58,785 nucleotides of DNA from Candidatus Zymogenaceae bacterium (GTDB taxonomy: Bacteria; Desulfobacterota; Zymogenia; Zymogenales; Zymogenaceae): contig JAFGFE010000007.1 of the NCBI GenBank assembly GCA_016931225.1, positions 1 through 58,785 on the forward strand, written 5' to 3'. How positions within the stretch are numbered: position 1 is the first letter of the stretch; each line of letters starts with the position of its first letter. Positions 27,107-43,339 of the stretch are shown here, piece after piece. The notes below the pieces were generated by a model. That model made no database searches and was not told where the DNA came from. It saw nothing but the letters and a program-made list of their open reading frames with translations. The position numbers and the translations under genes were made by a program.

Positions 27107-27976
27107 TTACTCTTCGTTTTCCTCGATCTCCGTCTCCTCCAGGGCCTCCTCCCCCTTTTTCGTGGTGATGTTCACCACCGCCTTCAGCGCCTTGCTCCGT
27201 TTCGCCCCACCCAGGATGATCTTCAAATCTTCATAGGCCGACGGATCGTTGACCAGGGCGCCCAGGGTTCCCTCACCCTCGTCTATCTTGGTGAGGATAC
27301 TGTCCAGACGGGAGAGAGACGAATCCAGGCTGCTCAGGGATTCCTCGGTGGTGCTCTTTCCGCCGTAGATCAGGGCGTGGAGCGTCCCCTCGCCCTCCCG
27401 GACCTCGGAGACGATCTCATCGATGTTCGTAAGGATCGACGCCACGTTTTCCCCCGACTCCTCCTCCTTCATGAACACCAGAAGGGAGTCCAGGGATTCG
27501 GTGATGCTCTCGATGTTTTTCACGATCTTATCGCCCCGGTCCAGAAACGCGTACATCTCAATCGGGTCCGTCGATTCAATATAGTCGCCGTCGCCCAAAA
27601 CCGACTCGTGGGAGCTGCCCATGGTGATGGAGATGTATTTATCCCCCAGAACGCCCATCGTCTTGATGCTGGCCACGCTGTCTTTCCGAATGCGCTCCTG
27701 GACCCGGGAATCGAGGCGCAGCTCCACCCCCAGCATCTTCGCGTCGATGTCCGACAGAAACCATATCCTCGATACGGTGCCAACATCCACACCCGACAGC
27801 CTCACCGGCGCCCCCTCCCTGAGGCCCGCGACGTCGGTGAAGTTTGCATACAGGTCGTACTGGGACTGAAAAAGCTGCTCCTGGCCGCCGATGGAGAATA
27901 TCATCACAAACGCCAGCACGATGCCGATGAAGATAAATATCCCCACCCGTATTTCCTGAAAGGTCTTCTTCGCCAT
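27107..27976 (-). CDS. mlaD: MlaD-type MCE-domain lipid transport protein
   Basis: Periplasmic substrate-binding component of an Mla-type phospholipid ABC transporter. An N-terminal membrane anchor (VGIFIFIGIVLAFVMIFSI, 11-29) is followed by the MCE domain (about 38-115; VRLSGVDVGTV is its hallmark) and a long helical C-terminal region (about 130-289) with regularly spaced Leu/Ile, as in MCE proteins whose helices form a hydrophobic tunnel. An AGGAGG stands six bases before the ATG. At 289 residues it is longer than E. coli MlaD. Third gene of the operon after mlaE and mlaF. Confidence 0.92.
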   Translation of the reverse strand: MAKKTFQEIRVGIFIFIGIVLAFVMIFSIGGQEQLFQSQYDLYANFTDVAGLREGAPVRLSGVDVGTVSRIWFLSDIDAKMLGVELRLDSRVQERIRKDSVASIKTMGVLGDKYISITMGSSHESVLGDGDYIESTDPIEMYAFLDRGDKIVKNIESITESLDSLLVFMKEEESGENVASILTNIDEIVSEVREGEGTLHALIYGGKSTTEESLSSLDSSLSRLDSILTKIDEGEGTLGALVNDPSAYEDLKIILGGAKRSKALKAVVNITTKKGEEALEETEIEENEE

Positions 27977-27988
27977 GAAATCCTCCTG

Positions 27989-28729
27989 TTACAACTCCCC
28001 GATATTTCCCTGTATGAAATCCTGCACCAGCGGGTTGTCCGACGCGTTCATCTCATCGATGGTTCCCACCGCAGCGATTTGTCCCCGGTAGAGCATCGCC
28101 ATCCGGTTGGACACCATGAACGCCGAATCCATATCGTGGGTGACCACGATGGACGTGACCGATAAGAGCTTCTGCAGCTCGATAATCAGATTGTTGATTC
28201 GCTTCGCGTTCGTGGGATCGAGGCCGGTGGTCGGCTCGTCGTAGAGGATGATATCCGGGTCGTAGGCGATGGCCCGGGCCAGCCCCACCCTCTTTTTCAT
28301 CCCGCCGGAGAGGTCCGCGGGCATCATCTGTTCGATATCCGGCAGTCCCACCATCTCAAGGCACCGGGCCACCTTTTCGGCGATCTGTTCATCCTCGAGG
28401 TCCGTATGCTGGCGAAGGCCGTATGCCACGTTCTCGCCCACGGTGATGGAGTCGAAAAGGGCCGCGCCTTGAAAGAGCATCCCGACGCTTTTCCTGACTT
28501 CCACCAGCTCCTTTTCCGCAAGGGGAACGATATTTGTCCCGTCTATTGTGATGGAACCCTCGTCCGGCTTGATGAGACCCAAGAGCATCTTGAGCATGAC
28601 GCTTTTACCGGTGCCGCTGCCGCCGATGATGGTAATCGTCTCGCCCTTTTTAATGTCAAGGGACAATCCCTTATATATCACGTTATCGTCAAAGGCCTTT
28701 ACTATGTTCTTATATGATATATAGGCCAT
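27989..28729 (-). CDS. mlaF: Mla-type ABC transporter ATPase
   Basis: Cytoplasmic ATPase of the lipid transporter, 246 residues. Walker A GGSGTGKS, signature LSGGMKKRV, Walker B IILYDEPTTGLDP, switch His in VVTHDM. Preceded by mlaE with a 3-base gap and followed by mlaD 12 bases later. The ATPase together with MlaE and MlaD makes a standard MCE transporter core. Confidence 0.94.
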   Translation of the reverse strand: MAYISYKNIVKAFDDNVIYKGLSLDIKKGETITIIGGSGTGKSVMLKMLLGLIKPDEGSITIDGTNIVPLAEKELVEVRKSVGMLFQGAALFDSITVGENVAYGLRQHTDLEDEQIAEKVARCLEMVGLPDIEQMMPADLSGGMKKRVGLARAIAYDPDIILYDEPTTGLDPTNAKRINNLIIELQKLLSVTSIVVTHDMDSAFMVSNRMAMLYRGQIAAVGTIDEMNASDNPLVQDFIQGNIGEL

Positions 28730-28732
28730 TGC

Positions 28733-29518
28733 TTACGCCTGAAAGAGAATCATAAATATCTTCGTCAGAAAGAGGTCCGCCACCAGTATCGACAGGCAGA
28801 TGTTCACCACCGATTCTGTGGTGGCTTTTCCCACGCCCACCGTCCCGCCGCGGGTATTGAATCCCTTGTAACACCCCACGATGCCGATGATGATGCCGAA
28901 AAAGGCGGATTTCCCCAGCCCCCCCAGAAAATCACTGATCTCGAGGATGTCGTTGACCTGGCGCAGATAGAATACCGGAGTCACGTCCAGCTCCAGCATG
29001 CTCACCACCATGCCGGAGATGATCCCCACTTCAATTGCGAATACCGTGAGGATCGGGAGCACGATGGCGCATGCCAGGATTTTCGGCGTCACCAGCTCGC
29101 GGATCGGGTCCGCCCCCAGGGAGCGGATGGCGTCCACCTGCTCGGTCACCTGCATGGAGCCCACCTCCGCTGTTATTCCTGCGCCCACGCGCCCTCCCAC
29201 AAGAAGACCCGTGAGCACCGGGCCCAGCTCCCTGACGAGAGATACGGCAAGCACGTTCGCGGCGAAGGACTCCGCACCGAACCGCTCCAGCGAAAAGGCC
29301 ATCTGCAGGGCCATGACGGCGCCTGTAAAGAGGGCCGTGATCGTGGCCACGAGGATCGACTGAATTCCGGTGTATTCGATCTGGGCGATGACGACATGCG
29401 GCCGAAACGGCGGGGTCACCAGAGCGGCGCACGCCCGAAAGAACATGCGGGATGTCCCATCTATATAGGTGATGCTCATCAGCGCCCAGTGTCCGAGCCT
29501 TTCAAAAAACGCCCGCAT
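28733..29518 (-). CDS. mlaE: MlaE-type ABC transporter permease
   Basis: Inner-membrane permease of the lipid transporter, 261 residues, with about five hydrophobic segments. Family hallmarks: SLVRELGPVLTGLLVGGRVG and AEVGSMQVTEQVDAIRSLG, then a YKGFNTRGGTVGVGKATT block near the C-terminus. Start ATG at 29518, 3 bases after the lipoprotein-like gene's stop. Confidence 0.94.
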   Translation of the reverse strand: MRAFFERLGHWALMSITYIDGTSRMFFRACAALVTPPFRPHVVIAQIEYTGIQSILVATITALFTGAVMALQMAFSLERFGAESFAANVLAVSLVRELGPVLTGLLVGGRVGAGITAEVGSMQVTEQVDAIRSLGADPIRELVTPKILACAIVLPILTVFAIEVGIISGMVVSMLELDVTPVFYLRQVNDILEISDFLGGLGKSAFFGIIIGIVGCYKGFNTRGGTVGVGKATTESVVNICLSILVADLFLTKIFMILFQA

Positions 29519-29521
29519 GTG

Positions 29522-30148
29522 TCACCTTCCATCGAGAAACATGAAACCGTCAACCACCGCCTCGAAAACCGACCGGCTCTCCTCGGCATACCGGGGGGGG
29601 CTCCACAACACCAGATCATACACATATCCCCCATATCGGGACACAGAGGCGAAGAACACCAGGGGCGTCTCCTCGAAGGTGCCGCGAAGCCTGATGAACA
29701 CCGCCGGGACTCCACCCGACTCTCCCGCCAGTGTGGCGGATGTGAGGGATTCGATGACCTTGTCCTCCACGTAAAAAAAGAGGTGACGGGCGATATACTC
29801 CAGGGTCGGCGGCTCGTCCATGTGGGCGTATCGGTCCTTCGAGGCGCGAATCATCATGGAAACGCCGGTTCCCCGGTCGGTCAGCGTGAGAATCGTATCC
29901 GACGCCGAAACCCGCTCGAAATCATCCTCGGGAATCGTCAGAGTAAAGCGGTATCGTTCGGAGGTGAAGGTCCCCCCATCGGTCACGATCATGGTCGTCA
30001 CGGCGCAGCCGACACACAAGAGGAACGACAGGAGGAAGACGAAGCCCCCCCTCACCCTTCGGCGACGGCTGTTCCGCCCCGATTCTTCGTGCGAGGCGGT
30101 CTTGACGTTCGGTATCACGTTGTCACCATCTTTCGTATGATCGGACAT
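29522..30148 (-). CDS. Putative lipoprotein or membrane-anchored protein at the head of the mla operon
   Basis: A highly basic N-terminus (SRRRRVRGG) leads into a hydrophobic stretch FVFLLSFLLCVGC that could be a lipoprotein signal or a membrane anchor. The remaining 160 or so residues look like a compact alpha/beta domain (FTLTIPEDDFERVSASD, LTLTDRGTGVSMMI); I cannot name it. Translation could begin at ATG 30148, ATG 30160 or GTG 30121; none has a good ribosome site. A -35/-10 pair (TTGTAT at 30179-30174, TATATG at 30156-30151) would favour the GTG. Position just ahead of mlaE suggests an accessory part of the lipid transport system. Confidence 0.7.
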   Translation of the reverse strand: MSDHTKDGDNVIPNVKTASHEESGRNSRRRRVRGGFVFLLSFLLCVGCAVTTMIVTDGGTFTSERYRFTLTIPEDDFERVSASDTILTLTDRGTGVSMMIRASKDRYAHMDEPPTLEYIARHLFFYVEDKVIESLTSATLAGESGGVPAVFIRLRGTFEETPLVFFASVSRYGGYVYDLVLWSPPRYAEESRSVFEAVVDGFMFLDGR

Positions 30149-30223
30149 AGCATATAACATATTATCGGTATAAATACAACCAGCCGGACTATAAGACCCG
30201 AATATACCGGTATCTGTTCCCGG

Positions 30224-30814
30224 TCAGCCCGCCTGTATCAGTAATATGCCGTCGAAAATACCGTGAAAGAGCATCGCCGCCCCGAGTCCCGCGAGGGTGA
30301 TGCACACACGCCCCTCCCGCCTTTTTGCGCCCACCCCCAGGGCGTAGCCGATGGCGGCCCCGCATATTCCGTGCACCGGAACGGAGAGAAACGCCCGGAA
30401 GAGCCCCGCGGTGAATCCAAGCTCCATGACGAACAGGATATTCTCGGCCGTGGCGAATCCCATCGCCGCCGCCACGCCGTACATCACCCCGTCCCGGGAT
30501 GTCGAGATACTGTTCGGCCGCCTGAGGTCGGGCACCAAGGCCAGGAACCGGGAAAGCTCCTCGGTGGGCGCCACCACACAGAAGGCGATCGCCAGCGCCC
30601 GGGGGATCGTTCCGGCCACGATGTTCTGAATATGCGGCACCGCGATCCCCTCGATGAGGGCGGCCGGCACAACCACCGCACATCCCAAAAGAAACGTCAA
30701 TAGAATCGGCAGAGTCGCTTCCCGCCTCCCGGCGCTTAAAACATGATACACGAACCAGAGGATGAAAAAACCGGGCGCCGTGGAGACGACAAACAGCTCG
30801 ACAAACAAGGCCAC
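30224..30814 (-). CDS. PrsW-family intramembrane protease-like protein (short)
   Basis: Polytopic membrane protein of 196 residues in the PrsW/CPBP-related glutamic protease group. The diagnostic EE pair is in APTEELSRF, with later conserved YGVAAAMGFATAENILF and the His motif AMLFHGIFDGILL. PrsW cleaves anti-sigma factors in Bacillus; targets here are unknown. It is a paralog of the gene at 31788, sharing APGFFILW near the N-terminus and YGVAAA-GFAT-ENI in the core. It lies about 90 bases downstream of the MBL hydrolase gene on the same strand. Confidence 0.85.
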   Translation of the reverse strand: MALFVELFVVSTAPGFFILWFVYHVLSAGRREATLPILLTFLLGCAVVVPAALIEGIAVPHIQNIVAGTIPRALAIAFCVVAPTEELSRFLALVPDLRRPNSISTSRDGVMYGVAAAMGFATAENILFVMELGFTAGLFRAFLSVPVHGICGAAIGYALGVGAKRREGRVCITLAGLGAAMLFHGIFDGILLIQAG

Positions 30815-30903
30815 TTCCCACGCCTTTTACTACATAAAACCGTATTATTATAACAGGTTTTATTTGGTCTGCAATAAACGAGTCGATTTTCGGGAATCGA
30901 TCC

Positions 30904-31686
30904 TCAGTGGACCAGGGCGACCATGTCCGTTCCGATCTCGACGGTCACGAGGTCCCTGGCAACGATGAGAGAGCCGGAAAAGCGCGACGCCACCACGGCA
31001 TCCAGATTCACCGACTCTACCGGGGGATAAAAGTGGGTCAGAATGAGCGTTCCGACGCCGGATCGCTCCGCCAGCTCGGCGGCCTCGAGGGGAGTCAGGT
31101 GTCCGGGAACCTTCATGTCGTCCGGGAAGGAGCACTCCAGAATCAGGGCGTCGGCCTCGGACGCAAGAGAGATAAGGTCTTCGGACCAGTCGGTATCGCC
31201 GGAATAGACCAGCGACGCCCCGTCCGCCTCCAGACGAAAGGCCAGGCTCTCCGGATTATGAGACACCGAAGAAAAGCCGACGGTCACATCACCGATCCGA
31301 TACTCCTCTCCGGGTAAAGCTTCAATCAGCTCCAGTGCGTATTGCTCCGGGACGATCCATCCGTCGTACGCGGTCTTGAGATTCTCATAAAACGCATTAA
31401 GTCCCACACCGCCGATCACCGTCAGGTCGTGCTCCCGGATGGATCCCATCGCGTATTTCGACGCAAAGAGATAGGGCACGAGCCCGGCGGAGTGATCCGG
31501 GTGAAAGTGAGACATCAGCACCGCATCGATATCCCGAACGCCCACGCCGACCTCGGTGATTCTTCTGAGCGGGTCCGTACCCATGTCTAAAAGAATCGTG
31601 GCGTCTCGTGTTTCTACCAGGTAGGAGGGAGATGATCGCGCGGGAGACGGGACGATGGTGCCGGAGCCGAGGATAACGAGCTTCAT
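30904..31686 (-). CDS. MBL-fold hydrolase, RNase Z-like
   Basis: A 260-residue metallo-beta-lactamase-fold protein. The N-terminus MKLVILGSGTIVPSPARSSP resembles the RNase Z/ElaC group; the metal motif is SHFHPDHSAG, with later Asp in YSGDTDW and His in LILTHFYPP. It lacks the exosite arm expected of a true tRNase Z, so a general phosphodiesterase role is as likely. The ATG at 31686 has no Shine-Dalgarno and lies about 7 bases beyond a good -10 box, so the mRNA is predicted to be leaderless. Confidence 0.88.
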   Translation of the reverse strand: MKLVILGSGTIVPSPARSSPSYLVETRDATILLDMGTDPLRRITEVGVGVRDIDAVLMSHFHPDHSAGLVPYLFASKYAMGSIREHDLTVIGGVGLNAFYENLKTAYDGWIVPEQYALELIEALPGEEYRIGDVTVGFSSVSHNPESLAFRLEADGASLVYSGDTDWSEDLISLASEADALILECSFPDDMKVPGHLTPLEAAELAERSGVGTLILTHFYPPVESVNLDAVVASRFSGSLIVARDLVTVEIGTDMVALVH

Positions 31687-31692
31687 ACACGC

Positions 31693-31721
31693 ATTGTATG
31701 GCGTTATGGGCGCAAGTACAA
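31693..31721 (-). promoter_or_regulatory. Sigma70-type promoter of the MBL gene, predicting a leaderless mRNA
   Basis: Minus strand TTGTAC (31721-31716), 17-base spacer, TACAAT (31698-31693). The initiation point, about 7 bases on, coincides with the ATG at 31686. Confidence 0.55.
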
Positions 31722-31729
31722 TAAAAAAC

Positions 31730-31758
31730 TTGTGTAACAGCGGAAAAAAAGCTATGGT
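31730..31758 (+). promoter_or_regulatory. Sigma70-type promoter of the PrsW-like gene
   Basis: TTGTGT (31730-31735), 17-base spacer, TATGGT (31753-31758), back to back with the MBL promoter. The ATG at 31788 follows with GGAGA upstream. Confidence 0.5.
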
Positions 31759-31787
31759 GAATCCACATCCGGCTCACAGAACGGAGA

Positions 31788-32717
31788 ATGAAACACGTGT
31801 ACCTGCCTCTTCTGGTTCTGGCGGTGGCCCCCGGCTTCTTCATCCTGTGGTATATATACATACAGGATCGATACGAGCCGGAACCGAAAAAGCTCATCTT
31901 CAAGGTGTTCCTGTGGGGGGCTGCTTCAACCGTCCCGGCCATCATCGTCGAGTTACTCTTGGAAAAGGCGCTGCCCGTTTCCGGAACCGCAACTCTCCTG
32001 GGGGCCTTCGTGGAGGCGTTCATCATCGTCGCTCCCATCGAGGAGCTCTGCAAGATGTCCGCCACGTATGTTTCCACATATCGCTCCCATGAATTCAACG
32101 AAGTGATGGACGGCATCGTCTACGGTGTTGCGGCGGCCATCGGATTCGCCACGATAGAGAACATCTTCTATGTCTTGAGCATGGGGGCGGGCGTGGGCGT
32201 TTTACGGGCGCTTTTCGCCGTGCCCGGCCACGCCATGTGGGGGGCGATCATCGGCTTTTATCTAGGAATGAAGAAAATGCATCCCGAAGCCTCCCACCGA
32301 TACATTCTGGCCGGATTCATCGTCGCCGTCCTCTTTCACGGCGTATATGACTTCGTCCTGTTCACCGCGTCTCCCCTGGGATTCCTGATCGTTCCAATCA
32401 TCATCTGGCTCTACTTCGTCTACAAGAAAAGACTTCGTTCGGCCCAGAAATCATCCCCCTTCCGGAACGGGCGGGACACATCCCGGTACGAGAACATACC
32501 GGATCGCTATTCTCCCCGGGGGATCATGAAAGTGTCGGCGGCGTTTGTCCTCTTCCTTGCGGCGGTGATGATCGCCGTGGGCGCCGTGACGTACCTCAAA
32601 GACGGAGGCGTCTGGCAGGCCCGATATACCGTGCTCTTTCTCTCCACGACGGTCGTCCCGGTTGTGGTCGGCGTCATACTGGCATGGTCGGCGAAAAAGG
32701 ACACCCTTTCCGCCTGA
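31788..32717 (+). CDS. PrsW-family intramembrane protease-like protein (long)
   Basis: Polytopic membrane protein of 309 residues. The PrsW glutamic-protease hallmarks are present: APIEELCKM with the EE pair, the YGVAAAIGFATIENIF helix, and HGVYDFVLF with the expected His and Asp. The DRYEPEPKKL stretch after the first helix is typical of PrsW. After residue 230 there is a polar, arginine-rich linker and two more hydrophobic segments (KVSAAFVLFLAAVMIAVGAV and the last 30 residues) that the short paralog lacks. It may cleave a membrane-bound anti-sigma factor or similar; no substrate candidate lies next to it. Confidence 0.87.
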   Translation: MKHVYLPLLVLAVAPGFFILWYIYIQDRYEPEPKKLIFKVFLWGAASTVPAIIVELLLEKALPVSGTATLLGAFVEAFIIVAPIEELCKMSATYVSTYRSHEFNEVMDGIVYGVAAAIGFATIENIFYVLSMGAGVGVLRALFAVPGHAMWGAIIGFYLGMKKMHPEASHRYILAGFIVAVLFHGVYDFVLFTASPLGFLIVPIIIWLYFVYKKRLRSAQKSSPFRNGRDTSRYENIPDRYSPRGIMKVSAAFVLFLAAVMIAVGAVTYLKDGGVWQARYTVLFLSTTVVPVVVGVILAWSAKKDTLSA

Positions 32718-32844: not shown

Positions 32845-33609
32845 ATGAAGTTTTTTCGATACATTCCTGTGCTTTTGATCGTCATCATCTGCATTCCGAT
32901 AGCGGCCGCGGCCGACGACATGGTTTTGGTGCCGGTGGAGGATCTCGCGGTTATCGTCGATGATCCCGGCGACATCCCCGCTCCCTTCTTCATCGATCGG
33001 TATGAGGTTACCAACGCCGAGTTCGCCGCATTCCTTCGGGATGTCGCGCCGAATACCGAGGAGCCATGGCGCACGTGGATAAACGGAGAGGACCCGAACT
33101 TTAAAATCGACGTCGAATCCGAATCCTTCGACGTAATGGTGGGATTCGATACCTTCCCTGTGGTGACGGTGACGCTCGAGGGCGCCGCCCGGTACGCCGA
33201 GTGGGCGGGAAAAAGCCTTCCCACAAATGCACAGTGGGATGCGGCGGCGATACTCGGCGACTCCCTCACCTCCTGGCTGGAGGCGAATTCCGAAGGGTCC
33301 ACCGAATCCCCTTGTGACCCGGAGGAGCCCGGCCCCGTGCCTGTGGGAAGCTACTCCCCGGATGATCTGGGCCTTTTCGACATGATCGGCAACGTGTGGG
33401 AGTGGACGACGGACGAGTACGAAACCGAATATCTCTCCTTCATGCCGACCCTGGGCCTCTCCCCCGCCGCCGGACCCTCGCTGTCTGTGGTCAGGGGGGG
33501 CGGCTTTCTGCTTGATCCCGGTGACATTACCGAATACCCCGCGGCGGCGGCCAGTCCCACGTCCCGATTCGGGAATATCGGCTTTCGCTGCGTTCGGGAG
33601 ACGGACTGA
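32845..33609 (+). CDS. Exported FGE-sulfatase (SUMF1)-fold protein, probably non-catalytic
   Basis: A signal peptide (about 1-23, ending AAAADD) precedes a formylglycine-generating-enzyme-type domain: FFIDRYEVTNAEFAAFL, PVVTVTLEGAARYAEWAGKS, LPTNAQWDAAA, LGLFDMIGNVWEWTTDEY, VVRGGGFL and GFRCVRE. These are the structural blocks of the fold. The paired active-site cysteines of true FGE near the C-terminus are not seen; the only cysteines are one in SPCDPEE and one in GFRC. A protein- or ligand-binding role, as in many bacterial members, is more likely than sulfatase activation. GGGAGA stands 9 bases before the ATG. Confidence 0.85.
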   Translation: MKFFRYIPVLLIVIICIPIAAAADDMVLVPVEDLAVIVDDPGDIPAPFFIDRYEVTNAEFAAFLRDVAPNTEEPWRTWINGEDPNFKIDVESESFDVMVGFDTFPVVTVTLEGAARYAEWAGKSLPTNAQWDAAAILGDSLTSWLEANSEGSTESPCDPEEPGPVPVGSYSPDDLGLFDMIGNVWEWTTDEYETEYLSFMPTLGLSPAAGPSLSVVRGGGFLLDPGDITEYPAAAASPTSRFGNIGFRCVRETD

Positions 33610-33771: not shown

Positions 33772-35781
33772 TCACGTCTCCCGCTTCACGGCGGCGCGCA
33801 CGCTCCTGAAAGCCATCTGAACGCCCTTCAGCACACCAAAAAAGAGAAGCAGTATCACAAACAATACGCACAGGCGATATATCCCGGTTTTCAGGTAGGT
33901 TGCCGTCACGCGGCTCTCCTCGGACAGCACGATCAGCTTCACAAAGCGGTAGGAATCCCCCCGGAGGGGCAGCTCGAACATGGCCGTCTCCTCAGGCAGC
34001 GCGGACAGCTCGTCGCCGGTGAGCACCTGCTTTTTGTTCACGTATTCCTCAAGCTCGGATTGGCGCTCGTAGACCTCCTTCCTGAGCTTCAGGTTTTCCT
34101 GAACGAACTCCGACGAGGTGTCCGGAGCGACGATCTTCTCGAAATGCTTGATGGGCTCCATGTCCCCGCCGAAACGCACATACTTCCTGTTTTCAGGAAG
34201 ATAGAGGGTGGCCATCATCTCCGCCACCGGGACGTTCAACACCGGCATGGGAAGCGTCACCTTCCCGACGACGCCGATCTCGTGAACCGGAACAAAGATG
34301 ACCGTCTCCACCACTATCGGTTCATCGAAAGCGGTCCGTTCCAAGGGAAGGGGGATCAGCACCGTGCCGTCCGGGTCTTTGGAGACGTTGGTGGGGCGAC
34401 CGGAGACCGCCGCCGACCAGAAATCCCCCCCCTCGGGCAGGGTCATCCTGAGATACTGAAGCCCCCTGTTTCGGACATAATAATGGGTGCGCATGACCAG
34501 CTTTCCGTCATCGGTGACGATGCCCACCGTGTTCGCCGAATCGATGAATCCCACGATGACCGGCAGGAACTCCCCCCTGGTGACGGAGACCGCAAGCTCC
34601 CACTCGTCGTCGGTGTGACGGTATCCGAGAATGGGCGGAAGATCCGAGAGGACAAGCAGGATATCCGGCAGTTCCGACGGGTCCTGGGGCCTCAAATTCT
34701 GTGCCTCGTGCTCGGAAATCTCGAACCCGGCGTCGGAGACGATGGAGACGAACCCCGTGTTTCGCTTCGTACCCCGAGGCCTGACCGCCGGGACGGAGAC
34801 TATCTCCTCCCCATCGACATACGCCCGCTCCATCAGGATCGTCAGGGCGAACGTGCCCTCGATCTCAAACGCGGTGGTGACCGATAACATCGGCGCGCCG
34901 TCCCCTTCACCCTCGTCCTCGCTCCACGCACGGATCCCCTCGCCGACGACGTCCACCAAGTCGAACTCCCCGGGGAGCTCGACGGTGAACGATGTCTCCG
35001 GGGCGTCCCGCACCTCGAATACGACCGAGGCCGTCAGGTACAGCGCCTCGTCGGCCACATCCAACAGCATGTAGGTCTGGGCGAGAAGGGTCGGCTCCAC
35101 GGTGATCTCGTCCTCCCCGCCATCGCCGACCGCCTCCTCGGGCCGGGGTGCGGCAACGGTGTAGGAAATATCAACGCGGTTAAAGCTGCCCAGGGCGGTC
35201 TCAACCTTTCCTTCGGATTCAGACAGGGTCACGCCGCCGACGGTGACGTTGGTAAGCCCCGTGTCGAAGCTCAAGAGACCCGAGGCCGACGCCGACACCG
35301 GCACATTAAAAAAGATCGAATGCATGCCCGGGTCGTCCGGCGCCGAAACATAGAGGGTCGCCCTGACGGTCCACGTCCCCTCTCCCCTCACCAGGGCGTA
35401 TATGCCGTCGGATTTCACCAGGGTGGGGGCGTCCTTCCCGTTGACGACAAGATCCGTGGGGGAGACACCCTCGCCGCAGACGAAGACCTCGTGCCACTCA
35501 TCCCCGTAGGTGACGGCGGTTATGTCCGCCGTCACCGTCAATAATCCCGGCACAAGCCTCATGTCGTAGGCGGCGTCCTTGACCGTAACCGTCACCGGAG
35601 GAGGCGGCTCGGGCGGAGGCGGGGTGACCGTCAGTTCGTCGATGAACTTTTTGAACTCCTCCCAGGGAATGGTGATGTCCGTGTCGGACAGCACCGGCAC
35701 ATCACTCTCCCGGGCCGGGGTCGTCATGGACAACACCGACACCAGAATTGCTGCGAGAACAGCGATACATATCCGTTTCAT
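33772..35781 (-). CDS. Large exported membrane-anchored protein of unknown function, paralog 1
   Basis: A 669-residue protein. A signal peptide (about 1-23) is followed by the motif IPWEEFKKFIDEL, a proline-rich spacer (TPPPPEPPPPV), and a long series of beta-rich domains. Near the C-terminus there is a helical segment (KLRKEVYERQSELEEYV), one membrane helix (about 632-655) and a short basic tail. This arrangement suggests a periplasmic body anchored in the inner membrane. It is clearly homologous to the upstream gene; shared blocks include GEGxRxW, LxLPExxxxWSxxVSGRP, DGTxLIPL and ATLYLPE/WTLYLPE. No enzyme motif is recognised. It starts 6 bases after its paralog's stop and ends at a bidirectional terminator. 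Confidence 0.85.
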   Translation of the reverse strand: MKRICIAVLAAILVSVLSMTTPARESDVPVLSDTDITIPWEEFKKFIDELTVTPPPPEPPPPVTVTVKDAAYDMRLVPGLLTVTADITAVTYGDEWHEVFVCGEGVSPTDLVVNGKDAPTLVKSDGIYALVRGEGTWTVRATLYVSAPDDPGMHSIFFNVPVSASASGLLSFDTGLTNVTVGGVTLSESEGKVETALGSFNRVDISYTVAAPRPEEAVGDGGEDEITVEPTLLAQTYMLLDVADEALYLTASVVFEVRDAPETSFTVELPGEFDLVDVVGEGIRAWSEDEGEGDGAPMLSVTTAFEIEGTFALTILMERAYVDGEEIVSVPAVRPRGTKRNTGFVSIVSDAGFEISEHEAQNLRPQDPSELPDILLVLSDLPPILGYRHTDDEWELAVSVTRGEFLPVIVGFIDSANTVGIVTDDGKLVMRTHYYVRNRGLQYLRMTLPEGGDFWSAAVSGRPTNVSKDPDGTVLIPLPLERTAFDEPIVVETVIFVPVHEIGVVGKVTLPMPVLNVPVAEMMATLYLPENRKYVRFGGDMEPIKHFEKIVAPDTSSEFVQENLKLRKEVYERQSELEEYVNKKQVLTGDELSALPEETAMFELPLRGDSYRFVKLIVLSEESRVTATYLKTGIYRLCVLFVILLLFFGVLKGVQMAFRSVRAAVKRET

Positions 35782-35787
35782 GGGCGC

Positions 35788-38148
35788 CTACTCCCCCGTC
35801 TCGTCGGCCTTTTTCGTCTTTTTGGACTTCGCGGCAACAGCCTCCTTATTCTGCTGATCCCGCTTCTCGCGATGAAGGGCGATGGAGCGCTTCGCGGCGA
35901 CGACTGCGTCTCTCGCCAGAAATACCGAGCCTCCAACCAGTCCCCAGAACACGCCCCAGCCGGGGAGACCGCCCCTGAGGATGAAGACGATATGTAAGAG
36001 CACAATCACTCCCACGGCACTCGCTAAAGCGATGGTCTTGTCTTTGTTCAGATAGAGTTTTCGTTTCCTGACCATAGACCTGATCCCCACGATGATCACG
36101 CCGAAGACGACCGCCCAGGCGATGACCTCCAGCATTTCCACCCAGTGAATAAGGTCCCTGCTCTGATAGCGGATCTTGACGGAGGAGACGTCGTCCGGAT
36201 TGACGATGACCTTTCGATAGGACATGCTGTGGCCGGTAAACGGGATGTCAAACCGAACCGGCAGCACCCCCTTCATCCCCCGGCCGGTCTCGCCGCCCAG
36301 GGATTCCAGACCCTCGGTGTAGATGTTCTTTTCCATGTATACCTGTGATTCGGGCATCTCTGCGGGCATATCGGCGTCCCATTCCCCTTCGACACCGGAA
36401 TAATCCATCATCTCGTCGGCATAGATGGAGGGGGCCTCCTCCACGCTGCGCATGGCGCCGCCGACCATGCCGAATTCCTTGTCCTCCCTGATCGGCGTCG
36501 GGCCGGGACCGCCGTAGTAGTCCATGTCGTCGCCGGTGTCCTTGTATACATATTTCTCCGGCAGATAGAGGGTCCAGATCAGCTCGTCCACCTTCATATT
36601 CACCAGGGGTGCGGTGAATCCCCGGCGTCCGAACACGCTGCTTAAATCCTTCGTCTCGGTGAAGTAGATGACCTCAACGTCGAACGAGGAGAGCCCCCCG
36701 TTGCCGTAGCCCGTGCGCTCGGAGCGATCGAGAGGGATGAGGATGGTGCCGTCCTCGTCCATGGCCGGCTTCACCGGGCGGCCGGAGACGTAGGTGCTCC
36801 ATATGGTGGTGTTTTCCGGAAGCTCAAGCTTCATGAACTGTCGGGCGTTGTTGGCCACCTCAAACACCGCCCGGGTGACGAAATCGCCCCGGCGGGTCAG
36901 CAATGACTTCAGCTCGGCCCGGCTGACATTGGCGTCGATGACCTCGATGTCCTCAAACGTGCTCACCGCCAGTATCAGGGAATAGGGATGCGTGATGTAC
37001 TTGTATGAATAGAAAATCGGGGTGTCCGACGCGCTGACGAGACCGCCCGGCAGCTCCGTGACGTCCAGCATCGCCAGGTTCTCCAGACGTACCTCCTCAA
37101 CGCCCACCCGGGTGGCGGCGGTCACGGCAAGATAGCCCTTCTCCCGCACCACGTCCAGCACCTCTATCTGGGGAACGGAGACCTCCGCCGTGGTGTCTTC
37201 CATGTTTTTTTCATAGAGCACCGCCAGGCTGAAGTCGCCGGTCACCTCGTAGCCGGCGGCGACGGTCACCTTCACCCGGTCGCCTTCCTTTTCGGTGTTC
37301 CACTCCCGGACCCCCTCGCCCTGGACATCGATGATGTCGATATCGGTGGGCACGAGAAACGAAAAGGATGTCAAAGAATCGTGGAGGATCTCGTAGTTGA
37401 TGGTGGATACCCCCACCAGGAATCCCTCTCCCACGGAGATGAGGGTATCGACCTGGGCCTGAACCCGAAGCTCTCCGGAGGTGCCCTCCTCGAACTCCGA
37501 CCGCCAGGATATCGACACCCATGTGCCCGCAGGCAGGACCGCGTCCACGGTGGTGGACGTCCCGGTCGGGCTTGTGGTCAGGTAGCTTGCGGGCGAGACT
37601 TCGAACTCAAGATCGGGCTCCCCCACGGAAAACCGCACCTTTGATGTGGCCACTTCCGGCACGGAGATCTCCACCGAGTCGTTGCCGTACCCCTCGTAGA
37701 TCGGCGCGTAGAGCGTCAAAGACAATATGTGCGACCCCGGCTCGTCGGTGATGAGGGTGTAGTACCAGTCGGCAACCGTCAGCGTCACCGGCCTTCCGTC
37801 CATGGTCACATCACCGATGGCCGTATCAGACGGAAACAGCGGCACCTCCACCCACTCGTCCTCCGCCAGAACGTTGAGGGCCAGCGTCACGTCGAACACC
37901 GCGTTGTCTCCCACCACCCGGCCCGTATACTCGGCTTCCGACAGGGTGAAGTTCATGGGCGGGGCGGGAGGCCCGGGCGGCACCGGCGGCGGAGCTACCA
38001 GCTCCTTGATGAGCTCCTTGAAATCGCTCCAGGGTATGGAGACGGCGCTGTCCGGAAGGTCGGGAAGCGTCTCCTGGGCTAAAACAGACATCGGCACGAC
38101 CAGTGCGAGGATGATCGCTGAAATGATACATATTTTATTCTTTTTCAT
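35788..38148 (-). CDS. Large exported membrane-anchored protein of unknown function, paralog 2
   Basis: A 786-residue protein from ATG 38148, with GAGG seven bases upstream. It has a signal peptide (ending VLAQE), the motif IPWSDFKELIKEL, a proline-rich spacer (PPPVPPGPPAPP), and then the same beta-rich domain series as paralog 1. It adds an acidic, Met/Glu-rich insert (about residues 540-610) that paralog 1 lacks. The C-terminus has hydrophobic segments (VIAWAVVFGVIIVGI, then two more) and a strongly basic tail (KSKKTKK). Similar uncharacterised proteins with an IPW-x-x-F motif and Pro-rich spacer occur in several bacterial phyla, as I recall. Function unknown. Confidence 0.85.
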   Translation of the reverse strand: MKKNKICIISAIILALVVPMSVLAQETLPDLPDSAVSIPWSDFKELIKELVAPPPVPPGPPAPPMNFTLSEAEYTGRVVGDNAVFDVTLALNVLAEDEWVEVPLFPSDTAIGDVTMDGRPVTLTVADWYYTLITDEPGSHILSLTLYAPIYEGYGNDSVEISVPEVATSKVRFSVGEPDLEFEVSPASYLTTSPTGTSTTVDAVLPAGTWVSISWRSEFEEGTSGELRVQAQVDTLISVGEGFLVGVSTINYEILHDSLTSFSFLVPTDIDIIDVQGEGVREWNTEKEGDRVKVTVAAGYEVTGDFSLAVLYEKNMEDTTAEVSVPQIEVLDVVREKGYLAVTAATRVGVEEVRLENLAMLDVTELPGGLVSASDTPIFYSYKYITHPYSLILAVSTFEDIEVIDANVSRAELKSLLTRRGDFVTRAVFEVANNARQFMKLELPENTTIWSTYVSGRPVKPAMDEDGTILIPLDRSERTGYGNGGLSSFDVEVIYFTETKDLSSVFGRRGFTAPLVNMKVDELIWTLYLPEKYVYKDTGDDMDYYGGPGPTPIREDKEFGMVGGAMRSVEEAPSIYADEMMDYSGVEGEWDADMPAEMPESQVYMEKNIYTEGLESLGGETGRGMKGVLPVRFDIPFTGHSMSYRKVIVNPDDVSSVKIRYQSRDLIHWVEMLEVIAWAVVFGVIIVGIRSMVRKRKLYLNKDKTIALASAVGVIVLLHIVFILRGGLPGWGVFWGLVGGSVFLARDAVVAAKRSIALHREKRDQQNKEAVAAKSKKTKKADETGE

Positions 38149-40045: not shown

Positions 40046-41479
40046 ATGACCGAACAGCCTCGACCCAACCTGATATACATCTTCGCAGATCAACTGGGAA
40101 GAAACCACCTGGGCTATGCCGGGGCGCGGAACGCCCGCACCCCCCACATCGACCGCATGGCACAAGAAGGGGTAGATTTCACACACGCCGTCTCCACCAT
40201 GCCGGTCTGCTCGGCGTACCGGGCGTCCCTTTTCACCGGGAAATACCCGACCACCACCGGCATGGTCATCAACGAGCTGAGGATGAACCCGAACCACCGG
40301 GCAATCGGACATGTGCTGACCGATGCCGGCTATGAAACCGGGTACATCGGGAAATGGCACCTCTACGCCAACCAATTCGCCCGGCACCACAGGGCGGAGA
40401 ACAGCTTCGTTCCGCCGGGTCCCCATCGGCTCGGATTCGACGGCTACTGGGCCGCCTATAACTTCAACCACACCTACTGGAACGCGTACTATTACACGGA
40501 CACCCCCGAGAAATTGTACTACACAGAAGACCCGAAATCTCGCGTCTATGAGCCCACGGGCCAGACGGATCTCGCCGTCGATTTCATCCGAAGGGCCGCA
40601 CGGAGGGACGCCCCCTTCGCCCTATTTCTCTCATTTGGTGTGCCCCACGATCCCTGGCGGGCGAAGAACGCGCCGCCGAGGGAGTTCCTCGAACCGTTTC
40701 TGGATCTCGATTTTCCAAATCCTCCCAACTACCGCGCAAAAAACGACCCATACGCCGATCTATGGGGGCGGTTTCTTCCCGGCGCAAGGAGACACCTCCT
40801 CGACTGGCGGCGGGTCTACTACGCGATGAACGCCAATCTCGACTGGAACCTCGGGCGGCTCCTCTCGGCGCTGGATGATGCGGGCCGTACAGAAGACACC
40901 GTCGTGGTGTTCACCTCGGACCACGGGGAGATGCTCGGCGCCCAGGGGAGGAGAAACAAGAACACATTCTATGAGGAAGCCTGCCGGGTCCCCTTCATCA
41001 TCAGACGACCCGGCTCGATCCCGGCGGGACACACGAGCGCCGCCTGCCTCGGAACGCCGGACATCATGCCGACGCTGCTCTCCCTTCTCGATCTCTCCAT
41101 TCCTTCGGAGGTCGAGGGGATTGACCTCTCACACTGTGTTTTTGGACAGCCCGGGCCGGAGCCGGAGGCCGCCCTGATGCAGAACCTGGGGGCCTGCGCG
41201 ATTTTCAGGGACGGGTACGAGTGGCGGGGTGCCAGGGACACGCGATTCACCTACGCCGTCTACCGGAGAGACGGCGCGGAGCACCTCTACGACAACATCG
41301 AGGACCCCTTCCAGACGACCAACCTGGCGGATGACCCCGCATATTCGAAAGAAAAAGTTCGTCTCAAAGAATGTATGTACAACAAAATGGCCGAGCTCAA
41401 CGACACCTTCGAGACGTCAAGCTGGTATCGAAAACACTGGATCGAGGGAAGAAATATCATGAGGGGAGCGAAGGGATGA
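40046..41479 (+). CDS. Sulfatase-family hydrolase
   Basis: A 477-residue alkaline-phosphatase-superfamily sulfatase. The active-site signature is CSAYRASLFTG with C55 as the residue to be oxidised to formylglycine, i.e. the C-x-A-x-R variant of the usual C-x-P-x-R. The metal-binding start reads YIFADQLG (D15), IGKWHL is conserved and FTSDHGEMLGAQG carries the second Asp-His metal site. There is no signal peptide, so it is probably cytoplasmic, acting on a sulfated sugar or aryl sulfate; phosphonate or phosphodiester hydrolases in the family are an alternative. It follows lysC by about 60 bases. Confidence 0.9.
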   Translation: MTEQPRPNLIYIFADQLGRNHLGYAGARNARTPHIDRMAQEGVDFTHAVSTMPVCSAYRASLFTGKYPTTTGMVINELRMNPNHRAIGHVLTDAGYETGYIGKWHLYANQFARHHRAENSFVPPGPHRLGFDGYWAAYNFNHTYWNAYYYTDTPEKLYYTEDPKSRVYEPTGQTDLAVDFIRRAARRDAPFALFLSFGVPHDPWRAKNAPPREFLEPFLDLDFPNPPNYRAKNDPYADLWGRFLPGARRHLLDWRRVYYAMNANLDWNLGRLLSALDDAGRTEDTVVVFTSDHGEMLGAQGRRNKNTFYEEACRVPFIIRRPGSIPAGHTSAACLGTPDIMPTLLSLLDLSIPSEVEGIDLSHCVFGQPGPEPEAALMQNLGACAIFRDGYEWRGARDTRFTYAVYRRDGAEHLYDNIEDPFQTTNLADDPAYSKEKVRLKECMYNKMAELNDTFETSSWYRKHWIEGRNIMRGAKG

Positions 41480-41524: not shown

Positions 41525-43339
41525 ATGGTCAAAAAAACACAATATGCCCTTTTCATCGGTTCGGCAATATCAGGATTTGAGACGGCAAATATGCCGACAG
41601 TCCCATCTGTCAAAAAAGGCATATTGTCAAGTATCGAGGAATCCTTCTTACATGTACCTCCAAAAAACATAAAATCGATGGTCGACGATCTAAAGACAAC
41701 AGAGTCTCAGCTTTATACCATGTATCAAAGCATGGCTTTTGAGGCTTTGGTAGAAGTCGTATATGAAACAAATCCAGAACTCTCAGTGAAACTCCTGCAA
41801 CTCTATTCCCAAGATGTGAATGTGGGAAGGTCAACAAAAACACCACGGTTCAATACACTCCATCAAGCAATAGCAAAAATTGTGAGAAACGGGACCGTAC
41901 CGGTGATTTATAAAACCAATTTTGATGAATGCATTGAATGCGCCATAGAAAGCGATTTGAAATGTGTGAGAAAGATAACAAAAATCATCGGGAATCATTC
42001 AGCGGTAAAAATTACATTCCCTGATATTGAAGATTTTAGAATGATCAAGCTTCATGGAACCGCATCGCGGCTCAATGATCAAGAAAGTATCGGAGAACTG
42101 GCCGCTCAATACAAAGACATTGCGAAAAGCCTCCCTGAAACAGTTCAAAGAGAACTGCATAACGATCTGAATATGTACCCGTTCAGATTCATTGGATACG
42201 GTGGCGTCGATTTTGATATAAACTTGGCCCTTAAAAACATCAACAGAAACAGCATTACGGATGATACACACATCTGGTTTGATAGGGTAGAAGAAAATGG
42301 CTACATCCGTGATCCGTCATTAGCTACAGAACGATTGAAGGAAAAGACAAAAAATCTAATAAAGGCGAAAACTGAATATATAAATTTGAGAGATGGACAA
42401 AACGCTGTTTTAAACTGGGCTGATATTAAAAACAGCGGAGAACTTGCATTCTCAGAAGATAACGTACCGTCGCTTCCTTTCACAAAAAGAGATTCGTGGG
42501 AATTGTTGGGAAGAATTCTTGAATACCTTCAGGCACCTCAAAGCAGAGAAGTCTTATTAACTGCTTCAAGATTATATGATGCTGAAAAGAAGATACCGTT
42601 GGAACTGCTCTCCCTCAACGGCTTTATGCATAACGGAGAATATAAAAAATTTGTTTCTCATGCTTTCAGGTGTCTTTTGAATAATTCATTGGACGAAAAA
42701 CAAAAGATTGAACTGCTCACACAATCGTCTCTCTCAAGCACCCTGGGATTTCTTCTTGGCTATTTTTTAATCTCGCACTTTTTCCTTGGATTGATGCTAT
42801 TACGGCACCGGTTATCTAAAAAACCCTATGAAATCTATCATTTGATTGCGAAAAGGATTCTTTATCACAATATCCAGCGAATCATTCTCGTACTTCCGTC
42901 CCCGATAAAACCATGTTTGAAGTTCTTTTCTCGGGTACAATATACACTGGAAAAACAGATTCGAGAAAAAGGATATCTGAGGGAATCTTCATATACAAGA
43001 AGGGAAGCCTTGAAGATGAAATCTCATCATATCCTTCAAAAGAAAAAACTGAGCCGCCGACAAGACGATCTCGAAGAAGAATATGGAAGTATCTTGGAAA
43101 ATATGAGCGATTTAGAGATAGAGTTGTCGGTCATGGGGGCTGAAACCGGAACTATCAATGTCCTGCGCGATATGGCAGAGTTTGCAGGGGGAATGAATGA
43201 TTTCGGTACGGCAGAGTACTATGCGAAGCGCACAAAAGAGTTGGCCGAATCGATTCCCGGACATGAAGTAGATGTTGAGAAGGCAATAACGATCCTAAAA
43301 TCTCTTCATGAGAGACACACAACGGGACATCGAAATTGA
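41525..43339 (+). CDS. SIR2-like domain membrane protein, candidate NAD-consuming defence effector
   Basis: A 604-residue protein with a divergent SIR2-like Rossmann domain: YALFIGSAIS (7-16), VIYKTNFDECIECAI (127-141) with N132, KLHGTA (175-180) with H177, and RFIGYGGVDFDINLAL (221-236). The Asn and His match the pair required for NAD hydrolysis in SIR2-type antiphage NADases. A membrane segment (about 405-426) follows, then a basic region, a coiled-coil-prone stretch (500-530) and a short TPR-like helical end (545-580). The gene is AT-rich (about 40% GC in sampled lines against 60-70% nearby) and its codons differ from its neighbours, so it looks acquired. The ribosome site is weak. Assignment to defence is inference. 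Confidence 0.7.
   Translation: MVKKTQYALFIGSAISGFETANMPTVPSVKKGILSSIEESFLHVPPKNIKSMVDDLKTTESQLYTMYQSMAFEALVEVVYETNPELSVKLLQLYSQDVNVGRSTKTPRFNTLHQAIAKIVRNGTVPVIYKTNFDECIECAIESDLKCVRKITKIIGNHSAVKITFPDIEDFRMIKLHGTASRLNDQESIGELAAQYKDIAKSLPETVQRELHNDLNMYPFRFIGYGGVDFDINLALKNINRNSITDDTHIWFDRVEENGYIRDPSLATERLKEKTKNLIKAKTEYINLRDGQNAVLNWADIKNSGELAFSEDNVPSLPFTKRDSWELLGRILEYLQAPQSREVLLTASRLYDAEKKIPLELLSLNGFMHNGEYKKFVSHAFRCLLNNSLDEKQKIELLTQSSLSSTLGFLLGYFLISHFFLGLMLLRHRLSKKPYEIYHLIAKRILYHNIQRIILVLPSPIKPCLKFFSRVQYTLEKQIREKGYLRESSYTRREALKMKSHHILQKKKLSRRQDDLEEEYGSILENMSDLEIELSVMGAETGTINVLRDMAEFAGGMNDFGTAEYYAKRTKELAESIPGHEVDVEKAITILKSLHERHTTGHRN

Follow-up and report, generated by a model that had tools for sequence, protein, structure and literature searches.

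The window analysed here, a stretch of 58,785 nucleotides from a Candidatus Zymogenaceae bacterium, contains two neighbouring genes, A and B, which the initial annotation read as diverged duplicates and as two partners of one envelope complex. The locus raises the question of what kind of protein A and B are, and whether they work together or were each retained for a task of their own.

Two adjacent genes of an uncatalogued family

A and B lie on the same strand, separated by a gap of 6 bp, and are paralogous, with 167 of 561 positions identical by BLASTP (30%, E 6e-54), a similarity far above chance. The two adjacent frames of 669 and 786 residues are indeed where the initial annotation placed them, although "giant" overstates proteins of this size (Table 1). 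In A, the parts run from a signal peptide through a PWSDF helix, a Pro linker, a beta body, a Met/acidic stalk and a juxtamembrane beta pair to about three transmembrane (TM) helices and a basic tail. Alignment to A and hydropathy reveal the same order in B, but with a shorter stalk, a single TM helix and a short basic tail. This common order, from signal peptide through basic tail, had been recognised before, as had the VSGRP, DGT(I/V)LIPL and LYLPE blocks, all of which fall inside the A-B alignment. C-terminal membrane helices had been ascribed to both proteins, which holds for A and not for B with its one helix. Judging from the model of A and from hydropathy, the first TM helix is followed in A by a TM hairpin-like pair and a long basic helix, and in B by the basic tail alone. 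The prediction that both proteins are exported and membrane-anchored is strongly supported.

The Met/Glu-rich segment previously taken for an extra insert of A turned out to be A's version of a stalk that connects the beta body to the membrane in every relative, with a length of 66-154 residues. As the stalk spans 106 residues in A, 76 in B and ~118 in most singletons, it is rather B that carries the shortened one. In the model of A, pLDDT falls below 50 at residues 553-599 and 617-628 of this segment. Within the IPW(S/E)(D/E)F helix, P39, W40 and F43 are invariant in an eight-row alignment of the pair and its relatives. In most relatives outside Zymogenaceae, two further repeats resembling the IPWxxF helix follow it, making three in all; one is kept in Zymogenaceae, and the helix is absent from those Altiarchaeal rows that extend to the N-terminus.

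Comparison of A and B with Pfam, NCBIfam and PDB sequences gave no meaningful match, the profile search returning chance-level hits only, and no recognised enzyme domain was found in either protein. A and B belong to an uncatalogued family that matches nothing in Pfam or NCBIfam. Both are rows of the A1 profile, against which they score 995 and 887 bits, and both show the features by which we describe the family: signal peptide, beta body with conserved N, Q, W, PL and P, stalk, beta pair, TM segment and basic tail. A literature search under the host name of the family (Zymogenaceae) found nothing.

Table 1. Features of the A-B locus, with positions in the window.
Feature	Position	Strand	Description	Basis
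Gene A	35788-38148	minus	786 aa, upstream member of the pair	ORF and translation
Gene B	33772-35781	minus	669 aa, downstream member of the pair	ORF and translation
A, signal peptide and disordered mature N-terminus, ~residues 1-26	38071-38148	minus		Hydropathy peak from residue 6
A, SIPWSDFKELIKELV helix region, residues 37-51	37996-38040	minus	Single retained copy of a three-repeat module	
B, TIPWEEFKKFIDE helix region, residues 37-49	35635-35673	minus		Translation, alignment
A, domain D1, residues 64-218	37495-37959	minus	M1-aminopeptidase-N-terminal-like beta domain	VIA match to E. coli PepN
A, domains D2-D3, residues 227-540	36529-37470	minus	Ribophorin I/Ost1-like beta region	Foldseek and VIA
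A, stalk, ~residues 541-636	36241-36528	minus	Mostly disordered	Met/acidic-rich composition
A, C-terminal membrane helices and basic tail, residues 664-786	35791-36159	minus		Model helices, hydropathy
MlaD, Mla-type ABC ATPase, MlaE, small lipoprotein-like gene, metallo-beta-lactamase, PrsW cluster	27107-32717			
Second, shorter PrsW-like frame beside the Mla/PrsW cluster	30224-30814	minus		By eye
Exported SUMF1/FGE-like protein (PF03781)	32845-33609		Convergent with A-B	
Sulfatase-like frame	40046-41479			By eye
SIR2_2-domain protein	41525-43339		604 aa; could be a defence-type gene	PF13289, E 2e-9

The pair is conserved in Zymogenaceae

All four genomes of the class (Ca. Zymogenaceae) that were examined carry A and B in the same order; the side-by-side duplication and divergence originally proposed are confirmed and, in these genomes, fixed. 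In two loci (L015 and L017) the genes overlap by ~11 bp. Between two genomes of the same genus, dN/dS was ~0.06 for A and ~0.075 for B, ratios that are rough since synonymous sites are near saturation and that resemble those of the MlaE, PrsW and metallo-beta-lactamase genes nearby. Both genes are under strong purifying selection, and the low ratios together with the conservation of the pair indicate that both are kept.

Beyond the SUMF1-like gene, with which A-B is convergent, lie genes for PrsW, a metallo-beta-lactamase, a small lipoprotein-like product and MlaE/F/D. This cluster, including A-B and the SUMF1-like gene, is retained in three of the four Zymogenaceae genomes, and such proximity would suit a periplasmic role of A and B in a lipid or stress pathway of the envelope, together with the neighbouring Mla-type lipid transport and PrsW cluster. 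We nevertheless consider this improbable. The convergent orientation makes a transcript shared with the rest of the cluster unlikely, and in one genome (G001) the metallo-beta-lactamase is the only one of these neighbours within the 16 kb read around the pair. Moreover, no neighbour is common to several lineages outside Zymogenaceae, where just the family itself and coincidental genes were found. Near one Zymogenaceae pair there is also a big frame (L016:49-4014), which by eye resembles the inverse-autotransporter type, a beta-barrel with a repetitive passenger.

Predicted structure of A

The AlphaFold model of A, based on a 59-row alignment of the family (A4), has a mean pLDDT of 81 and a pTM of 0.48; confidence is low at residues 19-35 and mostly above 90 in the beta body (residues 64-540). 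In a Foldseek search, the top matches were yeast and human Ost1/ribophorin I (best E 6e-9), followed by integrins, inter-alpha-inhibitor heavy chain 1, PIG-T and M1 aminopeptidases. We discounted the integrin matches, whose TM-scores are low, as reflecting generic beta-domain chains. Using VIA, residues 64-218 of A superposed on the N-terminal domain of E. coli PepN (Z 13.9, rmsd 3.1, 151 residues) and show the N-terminal saddle beta domain fold of M1 aminopeptidases. Residues 227-737 superposed on RPN1 29-523 (Z 14.2, 365 residues) with an rmsd of 23.5, which means that the single domains agree with those of ribophorin I and their arrangement does not. Profile comparison of D2 with D3 gave a weak match (probability 57%), and the internal repeat comparison of D1, D2 and D3 was weak too. 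The model strongly supports the view that the beta body of A opens with a domain like the N-terminal one of M1 aminopeptidases and continues with a beta region like that of ribophorin I/Ost1. Prediction of B, carried out without an alignment, gave a pLDDT of 39 and was unusable, so the fold of B is taken from its sequence similarity to A.

Like ribophorin I/Ost1, a non-catalytic oligosaccharyltransferase subunit, A is predicted to be an exported protein with a beta-rich extracytoplasmic region and a C-terminal TM anchor. Ost1 is built from a pair of similar beta domains in the lumen and a single TM helix (PMC7226087), whereas A has one more beta domain (D1) and extra TM helices in addition to its different domain arrangement. 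The C-terminal end of Ost1 forms a ribosome-binding helical bundle in an Asgard archaeon and in humans (PMC11417166). This four-helix, cytosolic bundle has no clear counterpart in A or B.

At the sequence level, the Ribophorin_I profile (PF04597) had no match in A or B at E 1, was absent from the 25 families listed for the 59 A4 rows at E 5, and had no match in five carrier genomes at E 1. Likewise, the four Zymogenaceae genomes, two of which are drafts (88-89% complete), yielded no STT3 (PF02516) match at E 0.001 or better, and just 3 of the 34 carrier genomes had one above the curated cut-off. An Ost1-like fold combined with these negative results points to a likeness in fold, and not to membership of the ribophorin I family. 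Thus, although Ost1/RPN1 are the best structural matches of A, and although an STT3/AglB-like gene lies ~3 kb upstream of the Altiarchaeales member in L075, on the other strand, we regard it as quite improbable that A or B is a bacterial counterpart of ribophorin I serving as accessory subunit of a protein-glycosylating enzyme or translocon. Published searches, too, confine OST1 to eukaryotes and to TACK and Asgard archaea (PMC11417166).

The likeness of D1 to the N-terminal domain of M1 aminopeptidases (PepN, LTA4H), with superposition over ~150 residues at ~3 A and Z ~14, raises the further possibility that A, B or both are enzymes of an unrecognised kind, the more so as the function of A and B is not known. 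This seems very improbable indeed. The part of M1 aminopeptidase that is matched is the non-catalytic N-terminal domain only; unlike the peptidases, A has no catalytic domain and is membrane-anchored, direct reading found no HExxH in A or B, and neither protein has a Peptidase_M1 match. Over the 59 relatives, only N, Q, W, P, L and P residues are invariant; no His, Cys, Asp or Glu is, although two glutamates (E313 and E349) come close.

Two other resemblances are weaker. PIG-T, a subunit of GPI transamidase that has been described as a scaffold (PMC9098846), shares luminal beta lobes with A and gave a weak Foldseek match (E 2.5e-4), but with a low TM-score and no detected sequence relationship. 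For proteins of the VIT-vWA type, to which inter-alpha-inhibitor heavy chains belong, the match of A to ITIH1 was weak (E 4e-5, 248 columns), whereas Pfam finds no VIT or vWA domain in A or B.

Relatives are widespread, patchy and mostly single

In the host phylum, a family member was found in 9 of 395 genomes sampled, the four Zymogenaceae among them. A scan of genome contigs yielded 49 loci, with record titles that include Latescibacterota, KSB1, Calditrichota, Zixibacteria, Aminicenantes, WOR-3, Delongbacteria, Gemmatimonadota, Wallbacteria, Planctomycetota, Deltaproteobacteria and Altiarchaeota, and others too; some of these titles are doubtful, since near-identical proteins occur under different phylum names. 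Such conflicts affect L053/L054 (Uhrbacteria versus Delongbacteria) and L065/L066 (Clostridia versus an unnamed bacterium), which points to assemblies that were mis-binned or mislabelled. Among genomes of the phylum to which G397 belongs (record title Latescibacterota), 4 of 80 carry the family; the class of G416 (record title Aminicenantes) has 8 carriers among 142, one of them on a weak match only, and the phylum of G417 (record title WOR-3) has 7 among 147. Occurrence outside Zymogenaceae is thus patchy, the four groups that were searched having carriers in about 1-6% of their genomes. From these searches, the family seems to be scattered across many bacterial phyla and a few archaea (Altiarchaeota), a distribution more like that of an accessory than of a core machine. 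In the Altiarchaeal loci (L073:4700-6991 and L075:10977-15299), a VIT-vWA protein gene lies directly downstream of the family gene of L073, and an alpha-2-macroglobulin-like protein is encoded one gene beyond that of L075.

The initial annotation had asked whether homologues always come in pairs, and had held that homologues commonly occurring singly with a known unrelated function would speak against a partnership. Outside Zymogenaceae, the majority of the carriers examined, several single-chromosome assemblies among them, have just a single copy genome-wide, so pairing is not essential to the family; none of these singletons has a known function.

The gene has repeatedly doubled and fused

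Further adjacent pairs occur in L063, L065, L066, L069 and L070 and in the WOR-3 genomes G417, G549 and G551, the tandem copies being separated by gaps or overlaps that are mostly tiny. In L059 and L060, two family units are joined in one frame of ~1770 aa, and in Wallbacteria (L081:4818-14276 and L082:4818-14315) four units, set apart from one another by hydrophobic stretches, occupy ~3150 aa. In L081, a YfhO-family gene is found downstream.

A tree of 57 rows resolves the Zymogenaceae pair, the WOR-3/Aminicenantes pair and the two-unit fusion as three separate duplications, and by this measure the gene has doubled independently at least three times. Constraining all first copies to one clade costs 206.7 log units (AU p ~5e-67), a figure to be read as strong rather than exact, since the tree is a quick one with two long branches and the constraint was picked after viewing it. 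Within pairs, the membrane part differs: A and B have ~3 and 1 TM helices, respectively, and in the WOR-3 and fused forms the hydropathy peaks number 2 in one partner and 4 in the other, a difference that specialised subunits would be expected to show. The repeated doubling and self-fusion suggests that copies may work together as parts of one non-enzymatic scaffold.

A tentative model for A and B

We favour, albeit tentatively, a reading in which a non-catalytic scaffold sits on the outer face of the cytoplasmic membrane and has A and B, expressed together, as two of its subunits. That they are partners in one complex is supported only indirectly, by the independent duplications, the closely spaced tandems and the two- and four-unit fusions; contact between A and B is something we infer mainly from the recurrence of pairs and fusions. 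An ancestral single gene would have formed a homo-oligomer, which duplication may then have turned into a hetero-oligomer in the Zymogenaceae lineage and, separately, in others, with the units fused covalently in some lineages. If Ost1 and PIG-T are a guide, the beta domains could keep client proteins or partner enzymes close to the membrane. The PWxxF helix, carried by its Pro linker, may be a peptide used for docking, and the basic tails, which are short, would lie on the cytoplasmic side.

Pairing and fusion are no proof that A and B touch, and the abundance of singletons is the main counter-argument to such contact being essential. It is quite possible that A and B have separate functions. 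More specifically, the duplicates may not touch at all, each acting alone or as a homo-oligomer, with a second specificity gained and adjacency kept for co-regulation. Singletons as the commonest state of the family fit such an account, as does the faster divergence of B (stem branch of 2.35 versus 0.72 for A), which also has fewer TM helices. Recurrent independent tandem pairs and covalent fusions in at least two lineages are, however, easier to explain if the copies work side by side, and we therefore see non-contact as the less likely course, if a serious one.

To conclude, a family that lies outside Pfam and NCBIfam nevertheless spans many bacterial phyla and Altiarchaeota. A and B might exemplify widespread but patchy prokaryotic ribophorin-I-like membrane scaffolds, whose working form contains several copies of the unit and whose genes have repeatedly passed from single to tandem to multi-unit chain, possibly as remote kin of the oligosaccharyltransferase and GPI-transamidase scaffolds; this broader view is speculative and we think it rather unlikely to hold. 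Singletons, tandem pairs and two- and four-unit fusions form a natural series in which the change from a protein built of like units to one of unlike units can be studied. Shared ancestry behind the likeness to ribophorin, if real, would bear on the origin of the scaffold subunits in eukaryotic membrane glycosylation complexes.
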